NCBI RefSeq assembly: GCF_001940455.1
Contig: NZ_MKQR01000007.1
Span: 85,378 to 149,377, forward strand
DNA from: Actinokineospora bangkokensis
GTDB lineage: Bacteria; Actinomycetota; Actinomycetes; Mycobacteriales; Pseudonocardiaceae
DNA: 64,000 nt
Direction: 5' to 3'
Position 1 is the stretch's first letter, and every line of letters begins with the position of its first letter. The notes below the pieces were generated by a model. That model had not been told where the DNA came from and did no database searches. It was given only the letters and a program-made list of their open reading frames with translations. Made by a program: the position numbers and the translations under genes. Positions 23,865 to 25,546 of this stretch are shown piece by piece.

Positions 23865-24686
23865 GTGACCGACGACCCCGACGAGGTTGACGACCTCTAC
23901 GCCCTGCCGCGCGAGGAGTTCACCGCCGCCCGCAACCAGCTGGCCAGGGCGGCGCGCAAGGCGGGCGAGAAGGAGCGGGCCGCCGAGGTCGAGAAGCTGG
24001 CCAAGCCCACCACCGCGGCGTGGCTGGTCAACCGCCTGGTGCGGCAGCGCCCGGACGCCCTGCGCTCGCTGCTCGACCTGGGGCAGGACCTGCGCGCGGC
24101 GCACTCGGCGGGTGCGGGGGAGGACCTGCGGGCGCTGACCCGGCGCCGCACGGAACTGCTGCGCGAGCTGGTCGACGCCGCGGCGGACGGCGAGCAGCTC
24201 AGCGAACCGGTGACCCGGGAGCTGGAGGAGATGTTCACCGCGGCGATCACCGACGAGGACGCCGCCGCCCGGCTCGCCGCGGGTCGGGTCACCACGGTGA
24301 AGGACCTGCACGTCACGCAGGTGTGGCCGGGGTTGGCGGTCGCACCCGCCACCCGGCCCGCGCAGTCCCGCGCGGACAAGGCCGCGGCGCCGAAGAAGCC
24401 GAGGGCCGACGCGGCGCTGGTGAAGCAGGCGCGGGCGGCGGTCAAGGAGGCCGAGTCCACGCGCGCGGACGCCGACCGGGCGGTGACCGACGCGGAGTCC
24501 GCGATCGAGGCCGCCGAGCAGCGGGTGCGGGAGCTCAACGCGCTGCTGGACGAGGCGGAAAGCGCGGAACTCGAGTCCCGCCGGGCGTTGCAGGTGGCCC
24601 GCCGCGAGGCCAAGGCCGCCGAGCGCGCCGCGGGCCAGGCCTGGCGGCGCCTGCGCCAGGTCGAGGGCACCGACGCGGGGGAGTAG
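23865..24686 (+). CDS. Coiled-coil protein of unknown function
   Basis: 273 residues. The N-terminal third ([20 protein letters not shown], then [17 protein letters not shown]) is a conserved hypothetical domain seen in actinobacteria; I know no function for it. The middle is Ala/Pro-rich with a basic patch. The last ~100 residues are a long Ala/Glu/Arg coiled coil resembling segments of SMC-like or stalk proteins. GTG is preceded by CAGGAT 6 nt upstream, which could be a leaderless -10 or a weak AGGA site. No partner gene is in the same unit. Confidence 0.75.
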
Positions 24687-24734
24687 GGCGGGCGGGGGAG
24701 TAGGGCAGGCGGGGCATTCGGAAAGCCCCGGAAA

Positions 24735-24970
24735 AGGGCACAGCCCCTGGGCGACTCCTCCGCGAGGGAGGCCCGTGGCGGACTACCACGGAAGCCCAGG
24801 GGCCGGGTGACTGCCTGGTATTCGCCGACCACGCGCCGCGCCTACGGCACCGGGTACCCGGTGTCTGCCGTGGGCGGAGCCGGCGTCCATCGTTGATGGG
24901 TGGTCCTTAGCGGACAGCCACCTCACGCGTCCTACCGGAACTCACTGGTGGACCACCTCCTCTCTCGTGT
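24735..24970 (-). ncRNA. Candidate standalone structured RNA (~235-260 nt)
   Basis: A 394-bp gap without a normal gene carries dense base-pairing potential on the minus strand, with its own promoter just upstream (24977-25005). In order: AGAGAGGAGGTGGTCC (24965-24950), whose GGTGGTCC pairs perfectly with GGACCACC (24906-24899); hairpins CATC-AAC-GATG and a stem around the palindrome ACCGGGTACCCGGT (24849-24862); finally a junction closed by GCCCCTGGGC/GCCCAGGGGC (24743-24752 with 24794-24803) holding two inner hairpins and followed by CCCTTTT. No gene follows on this strand, so it is not a riboswitch. It resembles the abundant actinobacterial RNAs (Ms1/MTS2823, raiA motif) in size and isolation; family membership is not established. 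Confidence 0.6.
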
Positions 24971-24976
24971 ACCTCG

Positions 24977-25005
24977 AATGTAGGCCGATTCGCGCCGCGT
25001 GACAA
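24977..25005 (-). promoter_or_regulatory. Housekeeping-sigma promoter of the structured RNA
   Basis: On the minus strand TTGTCA (25005-25000), a 17-nt spacer, then TACATT (24982-24977), close to the TTGACA/TANNNT consensus with ideal spacing. Transcription should start near 24970. It is the best-formed sigma-A-type promoter noticed in the window. Confidence 0.65.
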
Positions 25006-25117
25006 CGCATTAAGACCTCACCCGTACGGCTGCTGCTAAGGTGATCAACCAAGTGCGGAGCGTGTAGGAATTTCACCCACGTGGGGCTTCGCCAGGCGCT
25101 CTGGGGGGAACGGGTCG

Positions 25118-25546
25118 GTGCGGAGCTCGCTCAGCAGGTCAAGCCGCGTGGCCCTCGGCGCCGTCGTCGGCGCCACCGCCGCGGCCCTGTTCTACGAGGG
25201 CGTGGCCGCCGACCCGCTCAGCGAGCTGCCCGCCTCCCGCCCGGCCGCCGAGGCCGTCCCCGAGCCCATCCCCGCCACCATCAGCGACGGCCCCACGATC
25301 GCCGTCGTCACCGCCGTCTCGCTGGTCAGCACGCCCGCGTCCAGCGCGCCCCCGACCACGACGACCGAGGCGGTGGCGACGACCACCACCACGACCGAGG
25401 TCGCGCCGCCGCCCCCGGCGCCGGTGACCACCACGACGACGACCACGGCCCGCCCGGTCCCGACGACGACCACGACCAAGCCGCCGCCCCCGCCGCCCAC
25501 CACGACCACGACGACGAAGAAGCCGTGCGGGCTGCTGTGGTGCTGA
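25118..25546 (+). CDS. Thr/Pro-rich membrane-anchored or secreted protein
   Basis: 142 residues. A basic N-terminus followed by VALGAVVGATAAALFYEGVA forms a signal peptide or anchor. The rest is low complexity: a Pro/Ala region and then long Thr runs alternating with Pro (residues about 75-135), ending with KKPCGLLWC. Such Thr/Pro stretches are often O-mannosylated wall-spanning stalks in actinobacteria (general knowledge). The C-terminal CGLLWC cysteine pair is the only distinctive motif. GTG start with a G-rich ribosome-binding site (GGGGGGAA). No known family. Confidence 0.65.
   Translation: MRSSLSRSSRVALGAVVGATAAALFYEGVAADPLSELPASRPAAEAVPEPIPATISDGPTIAVVTAVSLVSTPASSAPPTTTTEAVATTTTTTEVAPPPPAPVTTTTTTTARPVPTTTTTKPPPPPPTTTTTTKKPCGLLWC

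Follow-up and report, generated by a model that had tools for sequence, protein, structure and literature searches.

An Ms_IGR-5 RNA of Actinokineospora bangkokensis that may imitate the start region of an mRNA

The window analysed here, a stretch of 64,000 nucleotides of Actinokineospora bangkokensis (contig NZ_MKQR01000007.1), carries on its minus strand an RNA gene (Table 1) in a gap between a plus-strand frame ending at 24686 and the next plus-strand frame, which starts at 25081 or 25118. A cmscan of the whole window assigned this gene to Rfam RF02471 (Ms_IGR-5), with 87.6 bits against a cut-off of 45 (E 4.9e-18) and a match that runs from 24970 to 24735 and covers the full model (positions 1-184 of 184); the genome holds one copy. 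The window RNA is a member of this known family and, as the match is end to end, the option of a new family raised by the first-pass annotation falls. The same annotation had also named Ms1, 6S and raiA as possible identities, but a permissive scan of 24500-25200 (E up to 1) returned RF02471 alone and no match to any of the three, with the limit that the Rfam library used, which presumably includes a raiA-motif model, may not include one for Ms1. The rest of that early description of the locus stood up well: this is a free-standing RNA of actinobacteria, some 236 nt long and equipped with a promoter-like site, the elements TTGTCA-N17-TACATT are present on the minus strand (25005-24977), the gap lies where it was placed, and no minus-strand coding gene follows closely, the nearest one identified downstream being pyrD, by eye about 0.9 kb on. 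Judged by its letters, the gene has a promoter-like site at its front and a terminator-like end, and in many homologs a -10-like TAnnnT was seen by eye just 5' of an ACAC or ACCA start. The fold of 24985-24700 (286 nt with flanks) has a z-score of -2.80, and 2 of 200 shuffled sequences were equally stable. A second cmscan match above cut-off in the window is an mraW RNA (RF01746; 47396-47504, plus strand, 68.2 bits).

Table 1. Coordinates of the Ms_IGR-5 gene and its features, numbered from the first letter of the window.
Feature	Position	Strand	Basis or remark
RNA gene RF02471 (Ms_IGR-5)	24735..24970	-	cmscan, full length, 87.6 bits
Predicted RNA ends	likely 5' A24970; likely 3' 24735-24732	-	sequence; homolog starts
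-35-like TTGTCA	25000..25005 (25005-25000)	-	sequence
-10-like TACATT	24977..24982 (24982-24977)	-	sequence; spacer 17 bases
Helix P1a, 5' strand	24966..24969	-	partner 24927-24924; 94.2% of cells paired
16-base site complementary to 16S rRNA 3' tail (G-U allowed)	24950..24965	-	comparison of relatives
Shine-Dalgarno GGAGG	24960-24956	-	within 16-base site
Short reading frame GTG...TAA, 12 codons, VSSGRTREVAVR (first residue read as Met)	24907..24945	-	frame test, 130 loci
Pseudoknot strand GGAC, within reading frame	24929..24932	-	partner 24783-24780
Helix P1a, 3' strand, within reading frame	24924..24927	-	holds the two top covarying pairs
Helix P2, 5' strand (3' half of reading frame)	24914..24922	-	partner 24814-24806
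P2b: last sense codon CGC	24910..24912	-	pairs with GCG 24825-24823; weaker
Bulge AAUACCA (common form AAUNCCA)	24816..24822	-	alignment A1
Helix P2, 3' strand	24806..24814	-	A1 pair counts
Terminal stem P3, 5' arm	24794..24804	-	RNAalifold, 14 close relatives; partner 24752-24742
Pseudoknot partner GUCC, P3 hairpin loop	24780..24783	-	covariation, permutation
Terminal stem P3, 3' arm, then GUGCCCUUUU	24742..24752	-	RNAalifold; sequence

Li 2013 described Ms_IGR-5 in M. smegmatis, and passages of later papers that mention it record its expression in S. lividans (SLIV_16488; PMC8079986), a transcription unit of its own as an sRNA in S. avermitilis (PMC8780764) and, in M. smegmatis, an overlap with ncMSMEG15794c (PMC10454040). 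The papers found in the open PMC subset, outside which Li 2013 lies, name it as an sRNA without function, and the search of that subset returned no function for it; a term search of the main text of a RIP-seq paper (PMC11077062) did not find IGR-5 named. For the M. tuberculosis RNA, in the Rv0812-Rv0813c gap, the literature search found no name. As for scr4389, its choice as a counterpart of Ms_IGR-5 was a guess for which no link was found.

Relatives were collected by three kinds of search. A scan of genome contigs with a 19-base motif returned at least 119 loci from Mycobacterium, Nocardia, Rhodococcus, Amycolatopsis, Pseudonocardia, Micromonospora, Nocardioides and others, with Cellulomonas, Geodermatophilaceae and Frankiales as further sources; these motif-picked loci are excluded from the frame test given below. 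The Rfam model, run on a phylum sample of 396 genomes, gave 86 matches in 85 of them (E<=0.01), 35 of which lay above the cut-off, and a first set of 70 was made of 69 RF02471 loci and the window (of the 70 loci used, 30 were returned by the search and 40 were fetched). A further model, R1, was built from an alignment of 56 homologs (A1), namely 52 of 65 model-selected loci after removal of near-duplicates, the window and three loci of a short form. R1 matched 144 of the 396 genomes at E<=0.001 and did not find the RNA in the other 252 of this sample; set against the 85 genomes reached by RF02471 at a laxer E, this means that the family is wider than the Rfam model shows. A held-out set of 60 loci lies outside the alignment behind R1, but it was picked with R1, and both the stop region and the 16S site are part of that model's sequence profile. 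A core pattern, consisting of a Shine-Dalgarno-like stretch and a stop, was passed by 185 of 189 loci (the exceptions are L029, L049, L064 and L066); no model-selected locus was lost by it, as all 70 pass, and among the remaining loci, which are not model-selected, it introduces a bias towards a 16S match. One locus at a contig edge (L039) was dropped, leaving 184, and in six of these the 3' segment was not located by the profile, leaving 178 rows, 175 of them unique. The loci behind all counts include kin and are not independent. Two outlying hits are recorded for completeness: L049, on a contig labelled Bacteroidetes, has the 19-base motif and lacks the core pattern, and may be due to chance or mislabelling, while a putative viral copy (L265), the single match of one pattern in viral contigs, sits inside a long opposite-strand frame and looks like chance.

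The 5' start of the relatives resembles AGAAAGGAGGTGGTCC. Against the 16S tail GGATCACCTCCTTTCT and with G-U counted, this region gives an uninterrupted run of 16 pairs in 163 of 184 loci, and 183 of the 184 reach 15 or more. These figures are biased upward because the loci had passed a pattern requiring a Shine-Dalgarno-like stretch; in the held-out loci the corresponding counts are 55 of 60 and 60 of 60. In most loci the complement extends to the last base of 16S. Of 16 searched genomes that bear the RNA, 10 gave an exact match to the tail itself, taken as GGCTGGATCACCTCCTTTCT, one more matched it with two mismatches, and the other five gave no match; a looser tail pattern matched in 4 of 12 genomes, six of them among the 16, and gave no match in eight. 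The four 16S tails that were examined (L259, L261, L262 and L264) all end in CCTCCTTTCT, that of L259 coming from a genome already counted among the ten exact ones and the other three from further genomes. Because the 3' end of the window genome's own 16S was not found in the assembly, its tail is taken here to follow that of the relatives. Long tail-complementary sites appear to be unusual in this genome, as AGGAGGTGRTCC occurs just six times in 7.45 Mb, one occurrence being Ms_IGR-5 (the reversed pattern occurs 15 times). By computed energies, the window's duplex with the tail has 16 pairs and -27.9 kcal/mol, compared with -12.3 for a plain Shine-Dalgarno sequence, and in 56 of 56 homologs the duplex (median -29.9 kcal/mol) gains more than it costs to open the site. 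In the homolog folds GGAGG is itself partly paired, with a median unpaired probability of 0.43 and values above 0.5 in 22 of 56.

Downstream of this site, in an RNA that the first-pass annotation had taken as noncoding, lies a conserved short reading frame. The frame test covered 130 model-selected loci from 32 family codes and looked for a start 7-13 nt after GGAGG. A stop codon stands at a fixed site in 130 of 130 loci (TAG 100, TGA 26, TAA 4, and no TGG), and an in-frame start with no stop in between is present in 128, 106 of them with a canonical codon; two loci have no in-frame start at this spacing. The same test applied to the other frames gave 2 of 130 in +1 and 0 of 130 in +2, and the expectation from shuffled loops is 20 of 130 (11.8 canonical). 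All tested members of 30 of the 32 family codes have the start, and the remaining two codes have it in 3 of 4 and 2 of 3. Most of the 128 starts are weak, with TTG in 63, CTG in 10, ATC in 6 and ATT in 6 (85 together; the last three codons account for 22), next to ATG in 33 and GTG in 10; TAG stops and TTG starts are rare choices in high-GC actinobacteria. Across the family the frame is 10-17 codons long.

The first set had given a similar picture with a wider spacing of 4-16: among its 60 parsed loci the stop is at a single site in 60, ATG, GTG or TTG is in frame in 42 (the other frames have 9 and 0), and with near-cognate starts the counts become 59 in frame, 16 in +1 and 0 in the other. Its ten unparsed members (nine on the other strand, one with a variant site) are all part of the 130-locus test. 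In the held-out set, at a spacing of 7-13, 53 of 54 loci parsed by rule have an in-frame start, against 1 and 0; the remaining six of the 60, read one by one, each have a short open frame, and they too count in the 130-locus test. The distance from the Shine-Dalgarno sequence to GAGGTG takes values between 29 and 46 and does not change in steps of three, which argues that the frame is preserved by shifting the start. Ribosome-protected reads are reported on Ms_IGR-5 in M. abscessus and M. smegmatis in PMC4974804, which also states that most characterised E. coli noncoding RNAs show ribosome footprints, and for this reason we regard the Ribo-seq support as weak.

These observations bear on the reading of Ms_IGR-5 as an ordinary base-pairing sRNA, in which the frame would be an accident of RNA structure and GGAGG would pair with target mRNAs. 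Many sRNAs use G-rich stretches, Rfam classes this RNA as an sRNA and its stems are strong and covarying, all of which fit; against it, the frame is kept even though its spacer (29 to 46) changes by non-multiples of three, the letters of the stop vary within TAG, TGA and TAA only, and the complement goes on to the terminal base of 16S in most loci. We therefore consider this account unlikely. In another reading Ms_IGR-5 could be a cap that sits on the 16S tail while 30S subunits are idle, protects it against RNase R or other 3' exonucleases and is removed by translation. The 3' tail of 16S is a weak spot of the molecule, and the complement covers it to the terminal base in most loci, but a cap by itself requires no start codon, frame or stop, and its probability seems to us low.

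The peptides differ widely among loci; judged from these comparisons, what is kept seems to be translation as such and not the peptide product. That the tiny peptide is the product of a dual-function RNA is, in our opinion, very improbable: an EV near the C-terminal end is common, but its codons, GAGGUG, are part of the P2 strand, and the frames of the short-form clade end instead in GGGSS, GGDCS or similar (L177, L178, L181, L200 and L207). This short form, in which the stop is offset by 14 bases and the peptide differs, is seen in L172, L177, L178 and L181, where a hairpin follows directly after P2 and the P3 loop with GUCC is absent; judged by the peptide, L200, L207, L224, L236, L237 and L244 also belong to it.

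The frame is in fact embedded in the fold. A mutual-information scan of the 175 unique homologs, made without a preset structure, placed P1a at the top of its list (for example C-G 151, A-U 15, G-C 6 and U-A 3 for a pair), with P2 also top-ranked (C-G, U-G, U-A, G-C and A-U); lower in the list came P2b and a pseudoknot between GGAC, GGAU or CGAC in the frame and GUCC, AUCC or GUCG in the P3 loop, and many of the 45 listed pairs are non-standard, from neighbour and clade effects. On A1, changes on both sides were found in 3 of 4 pairs of P1a (94.2% of cells paired), 5 of 9 of P2 (93.9%) and 1 of 3 of P2b (79.6%). For the structure as a whole, the 129 cells with both-side changes compare with 39 in shuffled alignments and with at most 32 when the structure is slid, so that the structure stands out from the controls by this cell count and by its score, but not by its count of nine both-side-changed pairs on A1 (7.3 in shuffles, 54 of 500 of which reach it, and 11 at slide -1). 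By permutation, P1a is fully paired in 151 of 175 rows against an expected 90.7, lower P2 in 163 of 174 against 99.4, P2b in 141 of 175 against 118.8, and the pseudoknot in 159 of 175 against a mean of 139.8 and a maximum of 147 in 2000 permutations; the procedure is uninformative for upper P2 (GGUG:CACC), because its 5' side never varies. Among 30 rows in which GGAC has changed, 16 pair fully with their own loop, as compared with 10 that would do so with the commonest loop, and 12 of the remaining rows are aligned as GACC and perhaps shifted. RNAalifold, run on 14 close relatives, returns P1a, P1b, P2 and P3, and several pairs of P3 have changed on both sides.

One of these helices, P1b (GUCC:GGAC), does not hold as a conserved element: 82.6% of its cells are paired on A1, 0 of 4 pairs have changed on both sides, and its 148 fully paired rows of 175 show no excess over the 146.6 given by permutation. 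As P1b and the pseudoknot use the same GGAC they cannot coexist, and P1b competes with the 16S site too; this leaves two explanations for P1b, an alternative state of the RNA or a side effect of the 16S site being fixed. The first helix of the RF02471 structure line, in which GGUGGU from the 16S site faces GCUGCC from the frame, was likewise rejected, with 83.7% of cells paired on A1, no both-side change and a result equal to that of shuffles. The stems that had been read from the window's letters are all there, namely GGTGGTCC (24957-24950) with GGACCACC (24906-24899), the palindrome ACCGGGTACCCGGT at 24862-24849, and the closing stem GGCCCCTGGGC (24804-24794) with GCCCAGGGGCT (24752-24742), which encloses two hairpins and is followed by GTGCCCTTTT. 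The expectation that stems would be conserved and covary was borne out, but not for the first of these: GGTGGTCC is the 16S-tail site, and its pairing with GGACCACC is not the conserved one, as GGACCACC is present in just part of the 14 close relatives. The conserved P1a, P2, P2b and pseudoknot were absent from that list.

Frames neighbouring the RNA were clustered around 185 loci, with at least 1 kb of downstream sequence in 165 and at least 3 kb in 104, and no neighbour family was constant across them. The most frequent one, with a PF08768 heme-binding domain, is convergent and found at 45 loci; the second (34 loci) is the antisense frame of the PF08768 family, overlapping it in 41 of 41 cases, and a class IV aminotransferase family occurs at 31 loci, mostly upstream of the RNA. 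The window RNA is surrounded by a convergent frame that has no Pfam match, pyrD, an Fpg-like glycosylase and a ParA-like ATPase. Same-strand frames closely downstream were seen at 15 loci, mostly of Micromonosporaceae, with a metallo-beta-lactamase-like frame (the L135 family), and at 12 loci, mostly of Geodermatophilaceae, with a frame without Pfam match (the L052 family); both families are clade-bound. Control in cis of one fixed neighbour was set aside, no same-strand downstream family running through the 185 loci, and the lack of a constant neighbour makes action in trans most likely.

This context weighs on the leader-peptide attenuators, such as those of the trp type and the whiB7 leader of actinobacteria, which share with Ms_IGR-5 a short frame, a disposable peptide and alternative helices (translation being predicted in our case). 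An attenuator, in which translation of the short frame would decide on termination at P3 ahead of a downstream gene, would account for a frame that lies over mutually exclusive pairings and is followed by a strong stem, for the clear terminator-like hairpin of some members (L177 and L178) and for the close same-strand frames of two clades (15 and 12 loci). Those frames, however, are confined to their clades, and Ms_IGR-5 differs from the known leaders in having no set-wide regulated same-strand gene in cis; the commonest neighbour family (45 of 185 loci) and, in the window, the next gene are both convergent, and the family second in number (34) is the antisense frame of the commonest one. We accordingly judge an attenuator to be improbable.

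A docking site for the 16S tail together with a hidden mini-gene indicates that the RNA probably works by engaging ribosomes, and the reading we favour, and hold to be reasonably probable from what the sequences suggest, is that of a free-standing RNA that imitates the start region of an mRNA for this purpose. A 30S subunit would be captured by pairing of its 16S tail with the site, which would lie in a bulge closed by P1a; initiation would follow on a mostly weak start codon, and a ribosome running to the stop would have to open P1a, the pseudoknot and P2. The RNA would thus switch between a folded and a ribosome-opened state, and would act in trans, through the binding of the ribosome or by exposing a region such as AAUNCCA, and not through the peptide or on a fixed neighbour. 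As outcome we infer a ribosome decoy or a translation sensor. A more specific version, which is doubtful although it deserves mention, makes Ms_IGR-5 the ribosome's counterpart of 6S RNA: a decoy of the 30S subunit or ribosome that pairs with the whole 16S tail and is freed when translation resumes, release being accompanied by synthesis of a throw-away peptide, much as 6S RNA comes free through the synthesis of a short pRNA.

6S RNA and Ms1 RNA are free-standing, structured RNAs that bind a core machine. Ms_IGR-5 is likewise free-standing and structured and would also bind such a machine, but their partner is RNA polymerase whereas Ms_IGR-5 appears to carry signals for the ribosome. The raiA-motif RNA is another free-standing RNA of actinobacteria, like Ms_IGR-5 in this, but its model gave no match (E up to 1). 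Actinobacteria are not known to have Hfq or 6S RNA. With the Rfam entry, the window RNA shares the sequence family, the size, the single copy, the terminal stem-loop P3 and expression as an sRNA in relatives; in the RF02471 model, however, P1a and P2 are single-stranded, and a pseudoknot is beyond what a covariance model can represent. By this comparison, the 16S-tail complement, the short frame and the combination of P1a, P2 and pseudoknot seem to be new, and the mRNA-like, ribosome-engaging reading was not met in the open PMC literature, although priority cannot be claimed as Li 2013 lies outside it. Ms_IGR-5 is widespread within its phylum, with mycobacteria and streptomycetes among its many actinobacterial carriers. 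It seems to be translated for translation's sake, with features that would make it testable; if it does bind or sense ribosomes, it would represent a new layer of translation control in these bacteria, antibiotic producers included.

A minor observation concerns the middle domain, which often mimics the 16S tail (L205, L216, L180, L147, L150 and the window, at 24906-24899), with up to 12 pairs with the Shine-Dalgarno site and 8 in the window. A mimic of at least nine pairs was found in 47 of 223 loci against 15.3 expected, and one of at least eight in 67 against 40.5, counts that include related loci and to which local GGAGG..CCUCC hairpins contribute. These numbers are suggestive of an RNA that could mask its own ribosome site with a copy of the 16S tail.
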